Shown in pieces: positions 12,848 through 22,300 of a stretch of 64,000 nucleotides of DNA (positions are counted from its first letter, which is position 1; every line of letters starts with the position of its first letter). Origin of the DNA: Pseudothauera rhizosphaerae (GTDB taxonomy: Bacteria > Pseudomonadota > Gammaproteobacteria > Burkholderiales > Rhodocyclaceae). Under the pieces are notes generated by a model, which was given only the letters and a program-made list of their open reading frames with translations, had not been told where the DNA came from and did no database searches. The stretch covers positions 1 to 64,000 of the forward strand of contig NZ_SSOD01000006.1 in NCBI RefSeq assembly GCF_004801305.1, read 5' to 3'. A program made the translations under genes and the position numbers.

Positions 12848-14929
12848 CTACGGAACGTTTGCGACGCCCGCGCTGTTGTCGAGCAGGCTGCGCGTGGCCG
12901 TCTGCAGGAAGGACTGCAGCCGCGTTCCCATCGCCGCTTCCGCCGTGGCGTCCCGGATGCGTTCGCTGCCCGGCCGGGCGCCGAGCTGGTAGGCGTAGAG
13001 CCGGGGTTCCAGGTCCCTGGGCTGGACGAGAATGCGTCCGCCCTCGACGATGGCCACGGTCTGGTCGCTGCCCGAGGGTTTGATGACGCCGCGGCCCTCG
13101 TCGCCCGCCGGCAGGCCGAGCAGGTCGCGTCCCCAGCACTGGTGGCGGACCTCGCCGCCGAGCCGCCCCATGATGGTGGGCACGATGTCGAGCTGGGTAC
13201 CCACGGTGTCGCGGCGCTCGCCGAAGGTCTCCCGGATGCCGGGGCCGATCAGCAGCAGCGGCACGTGGAAGCGGTGCAGGTCCATCTCCGTCAGTTGCCT
13301 GTCGGTGCCGAAGCCGTGGTCGCCCACCACCACGAACAGGGTGTCCCGGAAATAGGGCGACCGGCGTGCCTCATCGAAGAAGCGGCCGAGGGCCCAGTCG
13401 GAATAACGCATCGCAGTGAGGTGCTCGTCGAGCGCGCCGTGGCCGGTCACCGGCTCCACCGGCAGCACCGCGGGCAGCGCGTAGGGCGTGTGGTTGGACA
13501 GGGACTGCAGCAGCGCGTAGAAGGGCCTCCCGCCGAAGCCCCGGGCCAGTTCGGCAGCGCCGCGCTCGAACATGTCCTGGTCGGACACGCCCCAGGTGGG
13601 ATCGGAGACGGCCGGGTTCTCGTAGTCGCCGCGGCCGACGAAGCGCGTCATCCCCTGGTTGCTGAAGAAACCGGCCTGGTTGTCCCAGGCGAAGTCGCCG
13701 TTGTAGACGTAGAGGTCCTCGTAGCCGCGCGCGCTCAGGAGCTGCGGCAGGCCGGAGAAACGGTGCCCGCCTTCCGGCATCTGCATCAGGTACTCGAAGC
13801 CCGGCAGGTTGGGAAAGCAGGCCATGGTGGCGAACATGCCCTGGTGGGTGTGGGTGCCGTTGGAGAAGAAGCGGGTGAACAGCAGCCCCTCCCGTGCCAG
13901 GCGGTCGAAGTGGGGCGTGATGCCGTCGGCGTTGCCGAGCGCGCCGACGTAACGGCCGGCGAAGCTTTCGAGCAGGATCACCACCACGTTGCGGACCGGC
14001 GGCGTGCCCTGAGCCGAAGGCGTGCCTTGAGCCGGCGGCGTGAAGTCGCGACGCACGGCGGCGACGTCGGCGTCCACCAGGCGGTCGGCCGGCGCCAGCA
14101 GCATGTCGCGCACGACGCGCGTCGCCTCGTCCTGCGGCAGCCGGGCTTTCCAGATCTTGTCGCCGGACACGAAGTAGCGCGCTTTGGCCGCGGCGATCAG
14201 GGTCAGGCTGCCGTTGAGCCCGAGCTGGTTGGCGAACATGGACTCGGTGGTGTAGGCGTCGCCCCAGCGCAGCGGCGGGCCCTGGCGCAGCGTGCCGCGC
14301 GCCGCCGCCACCGCGGCCACCAGGCACAGCGCCAGCGCGAGCCAGCGCCGGCCTGCGGCGGAATGGTCACCGGTGACGGTCGGCCGCGTGCGCGCGTCGA
14401 TCCACGCGAAGGCCCGGACCATCAGCCACGATCCGACCGCCCACACCAGCAGGTAGCGCAGCACCGGGAAGCCGTGCCAGAGCATGCTCATGACGGTCTG
14501 CGGGTCTTCCCCGATGTACTGGAACACCAAGCTGTTCAGGCGCTGGTGGAACTCCCGGTAGAAGTCGAACTCGATGAGGCCGAGGAACAGCGTGACGCTC
14601 GCGGCGAACGACAGCCACGCGCGCAACGCCCCGCGCGCCGCCATCGCCCGCAGGCTGCCCAGGGACAGCAGCAGCGGCAGGCAGAGATAGACCGCCAGGC
14701 GCAGGTCGAAGCGCAGGCCGTTCCCGAAGGCCTCGACGAAGGCGGCCGCGGGCGCCTCGCCGATCTGGGCACGGTTGTAGGCCAGCAGGCCGAGCCGCAG
14801 CAGCGCGTGCATCGCCAGCAGGGCGAGCACCGACAGGCCGGTGAAGGCCAGATGGGCACGGATGCCCGGCGAGAGGATGGCGGCGGAGGCGGTGCGGGGC
14901 GGCTCGGCCGCCGCAGTCGGTGCGTACAT
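12848..14929 (-). CDS. LTA-synthase/MdoB-like sulfatase-fold membrane transferase
   Basis: A 693-residue inner-membrane enzyme. Five hydrophobic helices (about 25-235) precede a periplasmic alkaline-phosphatase-like domain (about 300-600). That domain shows VVVILLESFAGRYVGALG (metal-ligand Glu), FSNGTHTHQGMFATMACFPN (likely nucleophile Thr), and VVVGDHGFG with the Asp-His metal ligands. Family members transfer phosphoglycerol or phosphoethanolamine to envelope glycans or lipids. The substrate is unknown. The gene is divergent from the ColR-like regulator, and a TTGAC-N6-TTCAC site lies 72 bp upstream of its start, suggesting control by that regulator. GGAG lies 10 bp before the ATG. Confidence 0.85.
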   Translation of the reverse strand: MYAPTAAAEPPRTASAAILSPGIRAHLAFTGLSVLALLAMHALLRLGLLAYNRAQIGEAPAAAFVEAFGNGLRFDLRLAVYLCLPLLLSLGSLRAMAARGALRAWLSFAASVTLFLGLIEFDFYREFHQRLNSLVFQYIGEDPQTVMSMLWHGFPVLRYLLVWAVGSWLMVRAFAWIDARTRPTVTGDHSAAGRRWLALALCLVAAVAAARGTLRQGPPLRWGDAYTTESMFANQLGLNGSLTLIAAAKARYFVSGDKIWKARLPQDEATRVVRDMLLAPADRLVDADVAAVRRDFTPPAQGTPSAQGTPPVRNVVVILLESFAGRYVGALGNADGITPHFDRLAREGLLFTRFFSNGTHTHQGMFATMACFPNLPGFEYLMQMPEGGHRFSGLPQLLSARGYEDLYVYNGDFAWDNQAGFFSNQGMTRFVGRGDYENPAVSDPTWGVSDQDMFERGAAELARGFGGRPFYALLQSLSNHTPYALPAVLPVEPVTGHGALDEHLTAMRYSDWALGRFFDEARRSPYFRDTLFVVVGDHGFGTDRQLTEMDLHRFHVPLLLIGPGIRETFGERRDTVGTQLDIVPTIMGRLGGEVRHQCWGRDLLGLPAGDEGRGVIKPSGSDQTVAIVEGGRILVQPRDLEPRLYAYQLGARPGSERIRDATAEAAMGTRLQSFLQTATRSLLDNSAGVANVP
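14001..14036 (-). repeat. Two 18-bp tandem repeats in a linker-coding segment
   Basis: Two near-identical 18-bp units (14001-14018 and 14019-14036, three mismatches) encode repeated AQGTPP/S in the linker between membrane and sulfatase domains of the transferase. It looks like a local slippage duplication that keeps the frame. Confidence 0.7.
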
Positions 14930-15000
14930 GCGTTGGGGGCTCCATGGACCCGAATGCCGCGCGCGGCAGGTTCGAGACCGGGAATGCTAGGCAAGCCCCC

Positions 15001-15016
15001 GTGAATTTTTCGTCAA
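15001..15016 (-). promoter_or_regulatory. ColR-like operator facing the phosphoglycerol-transferase-like gene
   Basis: Minus-strand TTGACGAAAAATTCAC fits TTNAC-N6-TTCAC, the pattern also found before both methyltransferase genes. It lies 72 bp upstream of the start at 14929, in the divergent region shared with colR. Two half-sites 11 bp apart are usual for OmpR-type regulators. It departs from the Pseudomonas ColR consensus, as I remember it, in the central T run. Confidence 0.5.
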
Positions 15017-15138
15017 GGGCCCCGCCGCCGGAAGCCGCCCCGGCCGGAACCCGTTGCGCGCGCTATCATTCGCGCCGGGCACCACCCCCTGCCGCAACCA
15101 GGCCCGCCCACGGCGGGCCGCCTTTCACGGGACGATCC

Positions 15139-15810
15139 ATGCGCCTGCTGGTCATAGAGGACAACCGCGACATCCTGGCCAACATGGCCGACTACCTGGG
15201 CATGAAGGGCTACGTGGTGGATTGCGCCGCCGACGGCCTCACGGGCCTGCACCTGGCCGCCACCCAGCATTACGACCTGATCGTGCTCGACGTGATGCTG
15301 CCGGGCATGGACGGCTTCGCCCTGTGCGAACGCCTGCGCAGCGGCGAGCGCAAGGACGTGCCGGTGATCATGCTGACCGCCCGCGACGCCCTGGACGACC
15401 GCCTGCGGGGCTTTCACCTCGGCGCCGACGACTACCTCACCAAGCCTTTCGCGCTGCCCGAACTGGCCGCGCGCATCGAAGCGGTGCTCAAGCGCAGCCA
15501 CGGTGGCGCACGGCGCGAACTCTCCATCGGCGACCTGCATTACGACCTGGACACGCTGGAGGTGAGCCGCGCCGGCACCGTACTGCACCCGGGCCCCATC
15601 GGCCTGAAGCTGCTGGCCGTGCTGATGCGCAAGAGCCCCGCGGTGGTGCGCCGCGAAGTGCTGGAGGAAGCCTTGTGGGGCGACAGCCCGCCCGACAGCG
15701 ACGCGCTGCGCAGCCACATCCATGCCCTGCGCCAGCAGATCGACAAGCCTTTCGACCGGCCCCTGCTGCACACGGTGCATGGCATCGGCTACCGCCTGGC
15801 CGAATCCTGA
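15139..15810 (+). CDS. colR: ColR-like OmpR-family response regulator
   Basis: DNA-binding response regulator of 223 residues. The receiver domain (1-115) begins MRLLVIEDNRDILANMADYL and has the phospho-acceptor D51 in LIVLDVMLPGMDG and the conserved Lys in ADDYLTKPFALPELAARIEA. The C-terminal winged helix (about 130-220) ends HTVHGIGYRL. The N-terminal half closely resembles Pseudomonas ColR as I remember it, which controls membrane-protective genes and responds to metals through ColS. The cognate sensor is separated from it by three envelope-related genes. ColR-like direct repeats follow its stop within 22 bp. Confidence 0.85.
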   Translation: MRLLVIEDNRDILANMADYLGMKGYVVDCAADGLTGLHLAATQHYDLIVLDVMLPGMDGFALCERLRSGERKDVPVIMLTARDALDDRLRGFHLGADDYLTKPFALPELAARIEAVLKRSHGGARRELSIGDLHYDLDTLEVSRAGTVLHPGPIGLKLLAVLMRKSPAVVRREVLEEALWGDSPPDSDALRSHIHALRQQIDKPFDRPLLHTVHGIGYRLAES

Positions 15811-15816
15811 ACGGCT

Positions 15817-15832
15817 TTCACATTTTTTTCAC
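15817..15832 (+). promoter_or_regulatory. ColR-like operator before the first methyltransferase gene
   Basis: TTCACATTTTTTTCAC has half-sites TTCAC and TTCAC 11 bp apart with a T-rich centre. It fits every position of the P. putida ColR consensus as I remember it, (T/C)(T/C)NA(C/G)NN(T/C)TTTTTCAC. It lies 67 bp before the start at 15899 and directly after colR. Confidence 0.65.
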
Positions 15833-15845
15833 GTCCTGGCAACCA

Positions 15846-15898
15846 TTCCTTGAACCTGCCCTGATTATTTTAGGGACTCCGCACCCATGGAGTCCGCG
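15846..15898 (+). repeat. Leader copy 1 of the duplicated methyltransferase unit
   Basis: This 5' region matches 16643-16698 ahead of the second gene: TTCCTTGA, then CCCTGATTA, then GGGACTC and ATGGAGTCC close to the start. The distance from the ColR-like site to the shared GATTA element is 30 bp in both copies. The duplication therefore included the promoter, not only the coding region. Confidence 0.7.
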
Positions 15899-16588
15899 AT
15901 GTCCTATGACATCACCCCCGTCATCGAACTGCCCTTCAGCGCCGCGTATGACGTGCAGCACTCGCGGGCCTGCCTGGAAAAGCACCGCGACGGCCTGCGC
16001 CGCCACCTGTCCGACCTGCGCGAACAGCAACTCGCCCGCCGCGCACTGGCCATGGCCGGCGAGCCGCGACAGGTGCTCGACCTGTCCCGCACCGCCGGCC
16101 GTTTCTGGAACACCCTGGCCGAGCACCCGACCCGCGAAATCATCGCGGCCGACGACTCGGTACCCGCGCTCGACGTGGCCATGCACTACTACGCACCGCA
16201 ACTCGGCGGACGCATCCGCCCGCTGCGCACGTCGGCCTTCGCCATCGACCTGCCCGACGGGTCGGTGGACAGCATCTTCTGCATGGACCTGCTGCACCGC
16301 GCCGGCGAACCGGACCTCCGCCTGGCGCTGCTGCGGGAACTTCACCGGGTGACGCGGGATACGCTCATCGTCTCCCTGTGGGTGGACGGCAACTACCAGG
16401 CCTGGCGCCGGCAGTGCCGGCACAGGCGCCGCCTGCTGGACGGCGAGGAACTCGCCCCCACCCGCTTCGTGCTGCCCCGGGCCACGGCGGATGCGGAATT
16501 CGCCGGCGCCGGTTTCCGCATCGTCGGCCATCTCGACTTCCTGCCCCTGCACTCGATGCGGCGCGTCTACGTACTGCGCCGCGCCTGA
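15899..16588 (+). CDS. Methyltransferase-like protein with degenerate SAM motif
   Basis: A 229-residue class I SAM-methyltransferase fold protein, clearly a tandem paralog of the next gene, with the two alike at well over half of positions. The start at 15899 has GGAG 6 bp upstream; the same arrangement is seen in the paralog. The SAM loop that reads LDLPCGAGRF in the paralog is LDLSRTAGRF here (D61, T65, G67), so the first glycine of DxxxGxG is lost. Downstream MRLLHHIGE has become MDLLHRAGE. The shared C-terminus WVDGNY and HLDFLPLHSM is retained, so the frame is under selection or recently diverged. A catalytically inactive partner or a changed substrate is inference. By position it corresponds to WarA-type genes near Pseudomonas colRS. 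Confidence 0.75.
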   Translation: MSYDITPVIELPFSAAYDVQHSRACLEKHRDGLRRHLSDLREQQLARRALAMAGEPRQVLDLSRTAGRFWNTLAEHPTREIIAADDSVPALDVAMHYYAPQLGGRIRPLRTSAFAIDLPDGSVDSIFCMDLLHRAGEPDLRLALLRELHRVTRDTLIVSLWVDGNYQAWRRQCRHRRRLLDGEELAPTRFVLPRATADAEFAGAGFRIVGHLDFLPLHSMRRVYVLRRA

Positions 16589-16613
16589 GCCGCCCGGCGG
16601 AAGCCCGGGGCAC

Positions 16614-16629
16614 TTTACGTTTCCTTCAC
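16614..16629 (+). promoter_or_regulatory. ColR-like operator before the second methyltransferase gene
   Basis: TTTACGTTTCCTTCAC fits TTNAC-N6-TTCAC and differs from the remembered ColR consensus only at two positions of the T run. It lies at the same distance from the shared GATTA element as in copy 1, 85 bp before the start at 16699. Confidence 0.55.
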
Positions 16630-16642
16630 ACCCGCACGACTT

Positions 16643-16698
16643 TTCCTTGACCCGGCCCTGATTACCCTGCGGGGACTCTGCATCGGATGGAGTCCCCC
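16643..16698 (+). repeat. Leader copy 2 of the duplicated methyltransferase unit
   Basis: Second copy of the 5' leader described at 15846-15898. It preserves TTCCTTGA, CCCTGATTA, GGGACTC and the ATGGAGTCC that supplies the ribosome-binding GGAG. Confidence 0.7.
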
Positions 16699-17391
16699 AT
16701 GTCCCGCAACACCGTCCCGGCCGGCATTGAGCTGCCGTTCAGCGCCAAGTACGACGCCGAGCATTCCCAGGCCTACCACGACAAGCACCACGGCGACCTG
16801 CGCCGCCGCCTGTCCAACTGGCGCGATCAGCAACTGGCGCGCCGCGCCCTGGCCCTGGCGGGCGAGCCGCCGCAGGTACTGGATCTGCCCTGCGGCGCAG
16901 GGCGCTTCTGGGAAACCCTGGCCGAGCGCCCGGAGCGCCGCATCATCGCCGCCGACAACTCCGCCGCCATGCTGGAGGTGGCGTTGCGCCACTGCCGGCC
17001 GGCACTGCTCGAACGCATCCGCCCGCTGCACACCTCGGCCTTCGCCATCGACCTGCCCGACCAGTCGGTGGACAGCATCTTCTGCATGCGCCTGCTGCAC
17101 CACATCGGCGAGTCCGAACACCGTCTGGCGCTGCTGCGCGAATTCCACCGCGTCACACGGGACACGGCGATCCTGTCCCTGTGGGTGGACGGCAACTACC
17201 TGGCCTTGCGGCGCGGACGGCAGGAAGCGCGCAGGCACCGGCACGGCAGGAACGGTTTCCAGAACCGCCACGTGCTGGCGCGCTCGGCGGCGGAAGCCGA
17301 GTTCGCCCTTGCCGGCTTCGCCATCGCCGGCCATCTCGACTTCCTGCCCCTGCATTCGATGTGGCGCGTCTATGTACTGCGCCGCGCCTGA
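16699..17391 (+). CDS. Class I SAM-dependent methyltransferase, WarA-like
   Basis: A 230-residue cytoplasmic methyltransferase. Motif I is intact as LDLPCGAGRFWETL (D62, G66, G68), the acidic end of strand 2 is in IIAADNSAAML, and SVDSIFCMRLLHHIGE matches motifs II/III. The start at 16699 uses GGAG 6 bp upstream. In Pseudomonas a methyltransferase (WarA) and an InaA-type kinase near colRS modify lipopolysaccharide; a similar role is inferred here. The 3' end overlaps the kinase gene by 20 bp. Confidence 0.85.
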   Translation: MSRNTVPAGIELPFSAKYDAEHSQAYHDKHHGDLRRRLSNWRDQQLARRALALAGEPPQVLDLPCGAGRFWETLAERPERRIIAADNSAAMLEVALRHCRPALLERIRPLHTSAFAIDLPDQSVDSIFCMRLLHHIGESEHRLALLREFHRVTRDTAILSLWVDGNYLALRRGRQEARRHRHGRNGFQNRHVLARSAAEAEFALAGFAIAGHLDFLPLHSMWRVYVLRRA

Positions 17392-18052
17392 GCCGCCGAC
17401 GGGACTCGCGACACCCGGCAAGGACGGCTTCGAGTACTGGTGGACGCTGCCGGGCAACTGGGTGGAAGAACCCAACGAGCGCCGCAACGGCTGGAGCGGC
17501 GTGATCCGCGGCAGGGCCGGAGACGCCCTGGTCTACGTCAAGCGCCAGCGCGGCCACCTGTGCCGCAGCCTGCGCCATCCCCTGGGCTGGCCCACGGCGG
17601 GCCGCGAGTGGCACTTCCTGCAGCGCTTGCAGGCGCTGGGCATCGCCGCGCCGCGCCCGCTCTTTCACGCCATGCGGCACACCAGCGCCGGCGTCGAGGC
17701 GGTGCTGGCCACCGCGGCGCTGGAAGGCTACCGCGCCATGGGCGAGCTGGGCGACCTGCCGCCCGCCCGGCGCGCCGCCATCGCCGGCGCGCTCGGCCGA
17801 GTGCTGGGCCGCCTGCACCGGGCGCGCCTGCAACACGGCTGCCTGTACGACAAACACGTTATGATCCGCGTGCACGGCGACGCCCCGCCCGAGGTCGCGC
17901 TGCTGGACCTGGAAAAGATGCGCCGCCGCCTGAGCCGGTGCCGGGCCGCACGCCACGACCTCGCGCAGTTGCGCCGCCACCAGAACCTGTTCGACGATCA
18001 CGACTGGAAACTGCTGCTCGCCAGCCACGCCCGTGCCCTGGCCGGCCCCTGA
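17372..18052 (+). CDS. Lipopolysaccharide kinase InaA/WaaP-family protein
   Basis: A 226-residue protein kinase-fold enzyme of the Kdo/WaaP/InaA group, expected to phosphorylate lipid A-core sugars on the cytoplasmic face. The candidate ATP-binding Lys is K57 (YVKRQ) with Glu79 (REW). The catalytic-loop region reads LQHGCLYDKH (155-162), where the Asp of the usual HxDLY pattern is Cys157. The metal-binding Asp is D179 in LLDLEKMRRR. The start at 17372 overlaps the methyltransferase gene by 20 bp; its ribosome site is weak, and coupling is likely. It is followed 14 bp later by the sensor kinase. Confidence 0.8.
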   Translation: MYCAAPEPPTGLATPGKDGFEYWWTLPGNWVEEPNERRNGWSGVIRGRAGDALVYVKRQRGHLCRSLRHPLGWPTAGREWHFLQRLQALGIAAPRPLFHAMRHTSAGVEAVLATAALEGYRAMGELGDLPPARRAAIAGALGRVLGRLHRARLQHGCLYDKHVMIRVHGDAPPEVALLDLEKMRRRLSRCRAARHDLAQLRRHQNLFDDHDWKLLLASHARALAGP

Positions 18053-18066
18053 CCCCTGCCCGCCCG

Positions 18067-19347
18067 ATGAAGGCTTCCCTCTCCCGCCGACTGTTCCGCA
18101 CCATCTTCGCCGTCGGGCTGATCAACGTGCTGGTCACGCTGATCGCGGTCGAGTTCATCTACGAGGACATGGAGGACACCATCCTGCGCCTGGAACTCGC
18201 GCAGGAACGCGCCTACCTGGAACAGGGCATCGGCGAGGCGGGGCGGCAGGGATGGCACTCCTCCCTGCTGACCGCCGTCTACCACCCCGACGGCGCCACC
18301 GACGAACTGCCGGAGATCTTCCGCGGCCGGCCGGTGCCCTTCTCCGCCGAGGTCATGATCGGCGACAAGACCTACCTGATCTCCATCGAACGCACCGCAA
18401 ACCGGGCCGGCGTGCTCTACCTGGCCCAGGACATCAGCCTGCTGGAAAGCCGCGAGGACGTGATGCAGGTCGGCATGACCCTGCTCGGCCTGTGCATGCT
18501 GCTGCTCTGTTTCGCCCTCGCCCGCGTCGGCACGCGCCGCATCGCCGGACCGCTGCACGGCCTGAGCCGGCACATCGCACACATCCACCCGGGCACGGCC
18601 TTCACCCGCATCACCGCCCACTACGACGACGAGGAACTGGCGGACATCGCCGCCACCCTCAACCACCTGCTCGACACCCTGGAAGCCTACGTGCAGCGGG
18701 AGAAGTCGCTGGTCAGCCTGGCCAGCCACGAACTGCGCACGCCGGTGGCGGTGATCGCCGGCGCCCTGGACGTGCTGGAGCAGCGCAACTCCCTGGGCGA
18801 GGCGGACCGCCGCACCGTGGCGCGCATCCGCCGCGCGGCGGACGAGATGCGCGCCGACGTGGAAACCCTGCTCAAACTGGCACGCCGCTCGGGCGCGGAC
18901 GACGAAGCCGAGGACGTCGCGCTGACCGAGAGCGTGCGCGAGGTCGTGACCGAACTGGAAAGCGGCGCCCCCGAGCACGCCGGACGCATCACCTGCTACG
19001 CCACCGGTCCCGCGCCGACGGTGCAGGCGGACCCGGCGCTGGTACGCATGCTGCTGCGCAACCTGATCCAGAACGCCATTCGCCACACCCCGGACCGGGT
19101 AAACATCCACATCGGCGCGGACAGCCTGCGCATCGTCGACACCGGTGCGGGCCTGCCGGAACACGTGCGCGCCCGGCTTGCGGATGGCAGCGACCGCCGG
19201 GTGCCGGAGGACGGCCTGGGGCTCTTCATCGTCCGCCTGATCTGCGAGCGGCTGCAATGGCGGCTGGAAATCCGGCGCAGCGACGAGGGTGGCACGGTCC
19301 TCGAACTGCTGTTCGCGCCGCCCGGCGCACCGCCCGTTCAGGGATAG
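18067..19347 (+). CDS. colS: ColS-like sensor histidine kinase
   Basis: A 426-residue membrane kinase. TM1 (about 12-29), a periplasmic domain (about 30-133), TM2 (about 134-152) and a HAMP-like linker precede the phospho-acceptor H221 in SLASHELRTPVAV. The ATPase domain has N-box NLIQNAIRH and G1/G2 boxes VDTGAGLP and DGLGLFIV. The periplasmic part contains two ExxE pairs, E33-E36 just after TM1 and E80-E83. ColS of P. putida was reported to sense iron and zinc through an ExxE motif, so metal sensing is plausible. The partner is the ColR-like regulator at 15139. Its 3' end overlaps the convergent dnaE end by 10 bp. Confidence 0.8.
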   Translation: MKASLSRRLFRTIFAVGLINVLVTLIAVEFIYEDMEDTILRLELAQERAYLEQGIGEAGRQGWHSSLLTAVYHPDGATDELPEIFRGRPVPFSAEVMIGDKTYLISIERTANRAGVLYLAQDISLLESREDVMQVGMTLLGLCMLLLCFALARVGTRRIAGPLHGLSRHIAHIHPGTAFTRITAHYDDEELADIAATLNHLLDTLEAYVQREKSLVSLASHELRTPVAVIAGALDVLEQRNSLGEADRRTVARIRRAADEMRADVETLLKLARRSGADDEAEDVALTESVREVVTELESGAPEHAGRITCYATGPAPTVQADPALVRMLLRNLIQNAIRHTPDRVNIHIGADSLRIVDTGAGLPEHVRARLADGSDRRVPEDGLGLFIVRLICERLQWRLEIRRSDEGGTVLELLFAPPGAPPVQG

Positions 19348-22300
19348 ATGACGTCCACCGCCTCGGGCGGCAGCCATTCGCGCAGGCTTTCCAGCAACGC
19401 GTCTTCCGGGCGCACCCGCCAGCCCTCGCCGAAGGGCAGGTCGGCCTCGGCCTCCCCGTTGCGGTAGCGCACCCGCACCGTGCAGCCGCCGTCGCGGAAG
19501 GGCGCGAGCAGGTTCTGCAGGCGGTCGGCCGCGGCCGCCGCGCCGCCGGCCTCGGGCACTTCGCCGTTGATGCAGATCTGCAGCGCGCGGGCGTGGCGGG
19601 CGCGGGCCTCGCCCAGCGTGGCCAGGCGGTCGGCGATGATGCGCACGCCGTTCTCGCCGTTGAAGTCGTCCCGGCTCACCTTGCCTTCGACCACCAGCAC
19701 CTCGTCGGTGACGATCTTGCCGCGGCTGGCGTCCAGCACCTCGGAATACACGGTGACTTCCCGCGGCTGGGTGCCGTCGTCGAGCTGCACGAAGGCCATC
19801 TTGCCCCGGTTGCCCATCTTGGTGCGCACTTCCATCACCACCCCGGCCATGGTCACCGGATCGCGCGAGGGTTCGAGCTGGGCCAGCGTGCGGCGCACGA
19901 AGCGGCGCACCTCGGCCTTGAAGGCGTTGAAGGGGTGGCCGGAGAGGAAGAAGCCGATGGCGGTCTTCTCCTCCTTCAGGCGTTCGCGCTCGGACCAGGG
20001 CCGCACGCGGGCGAACTCGGGCGCGGCGCCGGCCGCCTCGGGGATCAGGTCGAAGAGCCCGCCCTGCATGGCATTGGCCGCGGCCTGCTCGGCGGCGTCC
20101 ATGGCCAGGCCCACGGTGGCGAGCATCTGCGCCCGGTCGATGCCGGCATGGCCCGGCAAGGTATCCAGGGCGCCGCCGCGGATCAGCGCCTCCACCACGC
20201 GGCGGTTGACCAGGCGGCGGTCCACCCGCGCGCAGAAGTCGAACAGGTCGCGGAAGTCGCCGCCGTCCTTGCGGGCGGCGAGGATGGCACGCACCGCCGG
20301 CTCGCCGCAGCCCTTCACCGCGCCCAGGCCGTAGCGGATGGTCTTGCGGTCCACCGGCACGAAGCGGTAGTCGGAGGCGTTCACGTCGGGCGGCAGCACC
20401 TGGACGCCGTTGGCCACCGTGTCCTCGTAGAACACCTTGATGGTGTCGGTGTTGTCCAGGTCCGCGGACATGGTGGCGGCCATGAAGGCCGCGCAGTGGT
20501 GCGCCTTGAGCCAGGCGGTGTGATAGGTGACGACCGCGTAGGCCGCGGTGTGCGACTTGTTGAAGCCGTACTCCGCGAACTTGGTCATCAGGTCGAAGAG
20601 CTGCTCGGCGAGCGCCGGGTCGTAGCCCTTCTGCTTGGCGCCGTCGGCGATGGTGGCGCGGTGCTTGGCCATCTCCTCCGGCTTCTTCTTGCCCATCGCG
20701 CGGCGCAGCATGTCGGCGCCGCCCAGGGTGTAGCCGCCGATGATCTGGCTGATCTGCATCACCTGTTCCTGGTACACGATCACGCCGTAGGTCGGTTCCA
20801 GGCAGGCTTTCAGGTCGGGATGGAAGTAGTCGATCTCCTGCTGGCCCTTCTTGCGCAGGATGAAGTCGTCCACCATCCCCGAGCCGAGCGGGCCGGGACG
20901 GTAGAGGGCGAGCACGGCGATGATGTCCTCGAAGCGGTCGGGCGCGAGCTTCTTCAGGAGCTTCTTCATCCCGTCCGATTCCACCTGGAAGATCGCCGTG
21001 GTGTTGGCGTCCTTCAGTATCTGGTAGGCGGCGGGGTCTTCGAAGCCCAGGCTCATCAAATCGGGCCGGCTGCCCTCCTGGCGCTCCACGTATTCCAGCG
21101 CCAGCTCGATGATGGTGAGGTTGCGCAGGCCGAGGAAGTCGAACTTGACCAGGCCGACGGCTTCCACGTCGTCCTTGTCGAACTGGGACACGGGCGTGGC
21201 GTCGTCGCCGTCGGCGATGTAGAGCGGGCAGAAATCGGTGAGCTTGCCCGGCGCGATCAGCACGCCGCCGGCGTGCATGCCGACGCCGCGGGTCAGGCCC
21301 TCCAGCGGCTCGGCCAGCTTCCACAGTTCCTGCACCGATTCGCCGTCGTTGCCGTCGGCCATCATCTCGCCGATCTGCGGCTCCATCTCGTAGGCCTTGG
21401 CGAGCGCCACCGGCTTGGCGGTTTCGATGGGGATCAGCTTGGAAAGGCGGTCGCACAGGCCGTAGGGCAGGTCCAGCACGCGGCCCACGTCGCGCACCAC
21501 CGCCTTGGAGGCCATGGTGCCGAAGGTGGCGATCTGGCTCACCGCGTCCTTGCCGTAGCGCTCGCGCACGTACTCGATGACGCGGTAGCGGTTGTCCTGG
21601 CAGAAGTCGATGTCGAAGTCGGGCATGGACACCCGCTCCGGGTTCAGGAAACGCTCGAACAGCAGGGCGTAGGCGAGCGGGTCCAGGTCGGTGATCTTGA
21701 GCGAATAAGCCACCAGCGAACCGGCGCCGGACCCCCGCCCCGGACCCACCGGCACGCCGTTGTTCTTGGCCCACTGGATGAAGTCGGCCACGATCAGGAA
21801 GTAGCCGGGGAAGCCCATCTGGATGATGGTGTCGGTCTCGAACTTGAGCCGTTCCTCGTAGCGCGGGCGCTGGCGTTCGCGCTCGTCGGCGTCCGGGTAG
21901 AGCTGGGCGAGACGCTCTTCCAGGCCCTTTTTCGCCTCCAGCACGAGGAAATCGTCCAGGCTCATGCCGTCCGGGATCGGGAAGAGCGGCAGGAAGTTCT
22001 TGCCGAGCTGCACCGTCAGCGAGCAACGACGGGCGATTTCCACCGCGTTCTCCAGCGCCTCGGGGAGGTCGGCGAAGAGCTCGCACATCTCCGCCTGGCT
22101 CTTGAAGTACTGCTCCCCGGTGAAGTTCTTCGGCCGCCGCCTGTCGGCCAGCACATAGCCTTCGGCGATACACACCCGGGCCTCGTGGGCGCGGAAGTCC
22201 TCCGGCTTGAGGAACTGCACCGGGTGGGTGGCCACCACGGGCAGGCCCAGCCTGCCGGCGAGCTGCACGGCCTGGCGGATGTAGCTTTCCGTGCCGGGGT

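Follow-up and report, generated by a model that had tools for sequence, protein, structure and literature searches.

Introduction

The closest described system to the locus examined here is the ColR regulon of Pseudomonas putida. In the study that defined it (PMC2689224), the ColR operator is a single 16-bp core with the consensus YYNASNNYTTTTTSAC, the promoter of the methyltransferase gene PP0903 is activated 10-fold by ColR, and the PP0900 promoter, which is divergent from colR, is also a ColR target. That account mentions two repeats, protected lengths that vary and extra putative boxes, with only the 16-bp core being defined. WarA and WarB, which are under ColR control, are predicted lipopolysaccharide (LPS) modifiers according to PMC8805031. 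The present analysis concerns a 64-kb stretch of bacterial DNA (contig NZ_SSOD01000006.1, positions 1 to 64,000; hereafter the window), in which a colR gene is accompanied by three sites of the form TTNAC-N6-TTCAC.

Two other regulators offer comparisons. At PhoB-controlled promoters the repeats of the pho box stand in for the -35 element, with about 10 bp left between the last of them and the -10 element. The layout proposed here is similar, but the half-site sequence of the pho box differs from the ColR-type half-site. In Escherichia coli, ArcA, of the OmpR/PhoB family, uses three to five direct repeats extending beyond the dimer box, mostly with 11-bp spacing (PMC3798270), so that additional repeats at this spacing have a direct precedent within the family. 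It is nevertheless a different regulator with a different half-site, whereas here the -10 register is constant at one promoter family over two bacterial classes.

How does the window locus compare with the P. putida regulon? Shared with it (PMC2689224) are an orthologous ColR and 11-bp direct repeats before a warA-type methyltransferase gene and before the gene divergent from colR; in both, an InaA/WarB-type kinase gene comes after the methyltransferase gene. The gene order is colR-methyltransferase-methyltransferase-inaA-kinase here, unlike the colR-colS-methyltransferase-inaA of the P. putida type, the colR-divergent gene is LtaS-like rather than PAP2, and the sensor kinase is not a recognisable ColS. 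The operator published as one 16-bp core is here four phased half-sites at a fixed distance from the -10. Exact consensus matches number two in this genome, one of them within a reading frame, compared with the 41 sites predicted in P. putida by a laxer matrix search (PMC2689224). The three sites very probably serve as operators for ColR in an orthologous circuit of a Thauera-like beta-proteobacterium and work by the mechanism set out in the Discussion. They belong to a known kind, with a longer operator than the cited papers describe and a changed sensor, and these are the two points that go beyond an earlier note on this DNA, which had proposed a ColR-like regulon inside its own locus.

Results

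The pattern TTNAC-N6-TTCAC has three matches in the window and no others: at 15001..15016 on the minus strand (TTGACGAAAAATTCAC), ahead of an LtaS/sulfatase-like gene, and at 15817..15832 (TTCACATTTTTTTCAC) and 16614..16629 (TTTACGTTTCCTTCAC) on the plus strand, each ahead of a methyltransferase gene. These are the coordinates, strands and downstream genes that the earlier note had given. All three sites contain two direct half-sites 11 bp apart; in the minus-strand site, TTGAC-gaaaaa-TTCAC, an A-run replaces the T-run. In 100 dinucleotide shuffles of the window the mean was 0.07 matches, and none reached three. The whole genome (45 contigs, 4.6 Mb) has seven matches, versus three for a reversed-pattern control, and three of the seven fall in 1.63 kb at this locus. 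Both counts exceed expectation, so the three sites are a real observation, far above the chance frequency that the earlier note had allowed as a way of explaining them. Widening the second half to TTGAC added four genome matches, none of them in the window, against 17 for the reversed control, and TTGAC-ended matches were dismissed as background.

Compared directly with YYNASNNYTTTTTSAC, the site at 15817 has no mismatch, that at 16614 has two, both at T-run positions, and the minus-strand site has four, at central positions; one site of the three thus fits the strict 16-bp consensus. The only other exact match in the genome lies on contig C9 inside a reading frame that we take to be EF-G-like. 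A weight matrix was built solely from the seven footprinted P. putida ColR cores of Table 1 in PMC2689224. Among the 127,970 16-mers of the window, it ranks the site at 15817 first (28.7) and that at 16614 second (14.4), the next best scoring 11.3, and it places the minus-strand site at rank 25 (score 5.5) because of its A-run spacer. The matrix ranking and the direct comparison therefore agree with the order in which the earlier note had graded the sites.

The gene immediately before the site at 15817, colR (15139..15810, plus strand), encodes an OmpR-family response regulator, identified by profile matches, identity, tree and recognition region. The gamma-proteobacterial comparison set comprised 73 loci, one of them labelled as a Paucimonas metagenome-assembled genome (MAG), and colR was within the fetched stretch in 71 (none in L070 and L115). 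The window protein is 74-77% identical to ColR in 68 of these 71; identity is lower in Denitrificimonas (72%), in a MAG assigned to the gamma-proteobacteria (70%) and in a single Pseudomonas MAG (61%). A tree places the window protein within a 34-row ColR clade (support 99/98), the branches beyond this clade being long, and its recognition region (PDSDALRSHIHALRQQIDKPF) is nearly the same as that of P. putida. By identity and tree position, what had been called a ColR-like regulator is a true ColR. Among the best 80 of 472 matches to methyltransferase 2, the closest named relatives are from Thauera, so the host is taken to be a Thauera-like beta-proteobacterium, in keeping with the beta-proteobacterial origin already supposed. 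None of the literature results listed (15 of 173) deals with ColR in Thauera, Azoarcus or Rhodocyclales.

Conservation was assessed in 29 promoter rows from Rhodocyclaceae (two of them the window's own), 73 rows mostly from Pseudomonas and eight of a distant methyltransferase clade. The P. putida matrix gave a best coding-strand match of at least 9 in 26 of the 29 Rhodocyclaceae rows (below: L023, L027, L069) and 70 of the 73 mostly Pseudomonas rows (below: L051, L115, L121), and in none of the eight distant rows. Similarly, when an 11-bp-phased array was scored against dinucleotide shuffles of each promoter, p ≤ 0.01 was reached in 26/29 Rhodocyclaceae rows (p ≤ 0.05 in 27/29, missing L027 and L069), in 72/73 mostly Pseudomonas rows (missing L115) and in 0/8 distant rows (p ≤ 0.05 in 1/8). 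The search upstream of orthologs that the earlier note had proposed thus finds the pattern conserved at close methyltransferase promoters. Upstream of colR, a minus-strand array scoring at least 15.5 is present in 66 of 71 gamma-proteobacterial stretches (not in L053, L059, L073, L087 and L098) and in three of 11 from Rhodocyclaceae (the window, L016 and L049).

When the methyltransferase promoters are aligned, the 16-bp site seems to form the distal half of an extended operator, (TTSAC-N6)x4, with an 11-bp period and a fixed distance to the -10, kept in Rhodocyclaceae and Pseudomonas. The predicted operator of methyltransferase 1 (15817..15854, plus strand) consists of TTCAC, TTCAC, GCAAC and TTGAA at 15817, 15828, 15839 and 15850, followed by a -10-like TATTTT at 15866..15871. 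That of methyltransferase 2 (16614..16651, plus strand) has TTTAC, TTCAC, ACGAC and TTGAC at 16614, 16625, 16636 and 16647 and a -10-like TACCCT at 16663..16668, giving TTTAC-N6-TTCAC-N6-ACGAC-N6-TTGAC-N11-TACCCT; in both the -10 lies at offset 49 from the array start. When periods of 6-17 were compared, the best four-repeat scores of 28 Rhodocyclaceae rows had a raised mean at 11 only (22.0 vs ≤16.1), and in the Pseudomonas set 11 was highest (21.0), followed by 16 (18.4). The -10 register was counted in 26 Rhodocyclaceae and 72 other rows, after removal of rows below the score cut and of identical 60-mers. TANNNT stands at offset 49 in 16/26 and 69/72, respectively, and YANNNT in 23/26 of the Rhodocyclaceae; at the other offsets from 44 to 59, TANNNT is found in at most one row and YANNNT in at most four. 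No paper on a four-half-site ColR operator stood among the literature results listed.

From the start of the last half-site to the start of the -10 is 16 bp, and the same distance recurs on the minus strand, where a -10-like TAGCAT (14984..14989) follows the site's last TTCAC half-site at 16 bp, again counted start to start. The minus-strand site therefore looks like the promoter-proximal half-site pair alone. By eye, the colR-divergent arrays of L016 and L049 have this 16-bp distance too, and the methyltransferase-type -10 offset was not seen at Pseudomonas colR-divergent promoters. A scan for sigma-70-like promoters found none, a result of little weight since shuffles gave 0.1. On the plus strand upstream of the window colR no array rises above background (12.5), and those of the Thauera loci L047, L048 and L050 reach 15.0. 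It is predicted that colR does not control itself and that the kinase is ColR-dependent.

Divergent from colR lies an LtaS/phosphoglycerol-transferase-like membrane enzyme of sulfatase fold (P0005, 12848..14929, minus strand; Pfam Sulfatase 2.5e-54), whose match to the NCBIfam LtaS model, 5e-18, is far below the model cut-off. Downstream of colR, all on the plus strand, are the WarA/PP0903-like methyltransferases 1 (P0003, 15899..16588) and 2 (P0004, 16699..17391), an InaA/WarB-type lipopolysaccharide kinase (P0008, scanned as fragment P0006; 17372..18052; Pfam Kdo 1.1e-44; InaA model 8e-35, below its cut-off) and a sensor histidine kinase, HK2 (P0002, 18067..19347), which ends the putative methyltransferase 2 operon and is not ColS by identity. 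A warA-type methyltransferase and a warB/inaA-type kinase are thus both linked to colR, and to judge by homology colR is flanked by envelope genes of the warA/warB type, which in Pseudomonas are under ColR control. With a true ColR, conserved sites and such neighbours, the proposal of a ColR-like regulon with local envelope-modification targets appears sound. The start of inaA overlaps the end of methyltransferase 2, a 14-bp gap separates inaA from HK2, and a simple consensus scan of the plus strand found no terminator-like sites in 14900-19450; HK2 is therefore probably in the ColR-controlled operon, and from its place at the end of that operon feedback is predicted.

HK2 of the window shares 26-34% identity with 12 ColS proteins, and five HK2 kinases together 24-35% (17 kinases compared), whereas seven Rhodocyclaceae ColS and five Pseudomonas-type ColS are 42-52% identical to each other. 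On these identities HK2 is not a recognisable ColS. In an evenly drawn family sample of 150 genomes, searches for ColR, ColS and HK2 scored, in each genome, no more than the 11 or 19 top candidates of a first look, so that absences in this sample are provisional. ColR at 68% identity or more occurs in 20 genomes (23 at E ≤ 1e-75, the extra three at 54-55%), ColS at E ≤ 1e-60 in 15, and HK2 at E ≤ 1e-40 in seven, two of which (G039 and G030) are without ColR at that identity. Of the 20 ColR genomes, 15 have ColS, five have HK2 and none has both. The window's own genome has no ColS at E ≤ 1e-60; with all candidates scored in six genomes of the genus, the best match to a ColS query was 30-33% in four, and there was none at E ≤ 1e-25 in two.

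Discussion

The following mechanism would account for the locus. Phosphorylated ColR would bind the T-rich 16-bp core, half-sites 1 and 2, at each methyltransferase promoter, and a second ColR dimer would then occupy half-sites 3 and 4. Half-site 4 lies 16 bp, start to start, before the -10; with half-site 4 so placed and no usable -35, ColR would activate from a PhoB-like, -35-substituting position. The minus-strand site may be a two-half-site version, in the promoter-proximal position, serving the LtaS-like gene. The circuit would deliver methyltransferase 1, the pair of methyltransferase 2 and InaA/WarB-type kinase, and the LtaS-like transferase, leading to envelope modification. HK2, the presumed kinase of ColR and last in the methyltransferase 2 operon, would be raised by the circuit that it serves.

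Several observations weigh against parts of this mechanism. The promoter rows are related by descent, and the half-site weights of the array score were chosen in this analysis. The minus-strand site is the weakest of the three, both by its matrix rank of 25 and because its array is rare in Rhodocyclaceae, eight of 11 colR-upstream stretches (L009-L012, L047, L048, L050 and L067) having no minus-strand array of at least 15.5. The published footprint at PP0903, 24-26 bp (PMC2689224), is shorter than four half-sites. Of the 18 genomes in the family sample that bear arrays, four (G039, G096, G057 and G065) are without ColR at E ≤ 1e-75, two of them (G057 and G065) even at E ≤ 1e-45; another regulator may therefore use the arrays, or ColR was lost or missed. 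Finally, the HK2 clade combines a very different kinase with an unaltered first helix of ColR, the helix that faces the kinase, so phosphotransfer from HK2 to ColR is not assured.

What might explain the presence of HK2 where ColS would be expected? Perhaps ColS was lost in the Thauera clade and its role taken over by HK2, which came from a sister two-component system and entered the ColR-controlled operon, with ColR, its four-half-site operators and its envelope targets kept and the regulator driving its own sensor. We hold the chances of such an exchange to be about even, on account of gene order, the association with a second regulator, RR2, and the slow change of ColR. In G039 and G030 an HK2-type kinase follows RR2, which is 46% and 50% identical to ColR, respectively; in five of six genus genomes the best RR2 match is ColR itself. 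The dimerisation domain of HK2 resembles that of the RR2 partner kinase, and an unrooted kinase tree, run with long-branch warnings, splits HK2 and the RR2-associated kinases from ColS and other kinases at 100/100. Since the kinase-docking helix of ColR is unchanged, an exchange would amount to a natural partner swap with one side unaltered.

A possible but more doubtful account is that HK2 is none other than ColS, rapidly diverged within the Thauera clade and relocated to a place behind inaA. Remote homology links the sensor domains of HK2 and ColS (hhalign probability 96.5, E 8e-10), and a juxtamembrane ExxE beside the second membrane helix is found in 12/12 HK2-clade rows and 20/21 ColS rows, reading ESRE in the window HK2; in ColS this motif is required for sensing of Zn and Fe(III) (PMC4074579). 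Approximately unbiased (AU) tests reject none of three groupings, HK2 with Rhodocyclaceae ColS (p 0.50), HK2 with the ColS of L189 (p 0.36) and RR2 with HK2-associated ColR (p 0.17), so the trees prove neither exchange nor fast divergence. Speaking against such divergence are the HK2-type kinases that adjoin RR2, a ColR that stayed 84-91% identical to the window protein in the same clade, and the changed operon position of the kinase. If the kinase was exchanged, the locus is a clean natural case of a two-component partner swap in which regulator, operators and targets were kept, and the existence of related genomes with ColS and with HK2 makes the signal of each kinase directly comparable. 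Arrangements vary further: no kinase was seen beside colR in a 3.7-kb stretch of G042 (L154, L128), where some 24-26 kb separate colR from methyltransferase, inaA and HK2; the genome G099, which shares the genus code, has the pair colR-colS.

The four-half-site operator also has to be weighed against the simpler view that the 16-bp core alone is the ColR site, half-sites 3 and 4 being promoter sequence kept for RNA polymerase or another activator. The short footprint and the 16-bp consensus of the published study speak for this view, as does the resemblance of TTGAC to a -35 hexamer. Yet the spacer from TTGACN to the -10 is 10 bp, far too short for a -35/-10 pair, so the TTGAC of the last half-site cannot be an ordinary -35, and across two classes half-sites 3 and 4 remain TTSAC-like and in 11-bp phase. 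Moreover, six of the seven published P. putida sites (PMC2689224) carry an AC displaced by +11 or -11 from the core and so in phase with it, compared with at most one of seven at other spacings from 6 to 15. We therefore regard a core-only site as unlikely. Should the longer operator hold, the usual 16-bp ColR box covers no more than the distal half of the promoter on which ColR acted most strongly in the P. putida study, and regulon predictions that ignore half-sites 3 and 4 and the -10 register would mix activating and non-activating sites.

Could the main binder be another OmpR-family regulator? The four array-bearing genomes without ColR at threshold would permit it, and an 11-bp repeat form is common to OmpR-family sites. 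It is improbable all the same, since colR directly adjoins the arrays in the window and several relatives, the orthologous P. putida promoter is activated by ColR (PMC2689224), and a matrix made from ColR footprints detects these sites. In G053 a close methyltransferase is accompanied by neither array nor ColR at E ≤ 1e-75. A chance cluster in a T-rich patch, for which only the low-complexity spacers speak, has a negligible probability and is rejected on window shuffles, genome count, matrix ranks and conservation across two classes.

Beyond the locus, strict patterns searched genome-wide gave no further convincing ColR promoter site; degenerate sites were not searched genome-wide. Of the other four genome matches to TTNAC-N6-TTCAC, one, C7:50753 (L006), lies upstream of an open reading frame that we take to be mraZ-like, its repeats resembling MraZ boxes, and the other three seem, from the sequence, to be inside genes. 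Matches of the mraZ-like promoter kind form a false-positive class for ColR regulon scans. At C3:98193 (L043), near a presumably DctP-like gene, three phased half-sites, CTCAC-TTTAC-TTGAC, were seen by eye, without the -10 register.

The SAM motif I of methyltransferase 1 is degenerate (DLSRTAGRF) and that of methyltransferase 2 is intact (DLPCGAGRF); methyltransferase 1 is likely a pseudo-methyltransferase retaining its own full operator. The sole close methyltransferase found in G002 is also degenerate (DLHGHAGRF, L012). Downstream of it, on the reverse complement of L131 at about 1158-1215, is a second complete four-half-site array with a -10 that precedes only a partial inaA match, an operator that seems to have outlived its gene. 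Sulfatase-fold LtaS-like genes, 28-71% identical to the window gene, recur in varied positions beside ColR-type methyltransferases (L027, L054, L099, L067, L018, L020, L022 and L024), which suggests that the LtaS-like gene is a recurrent functional partner of these methyltransferases.

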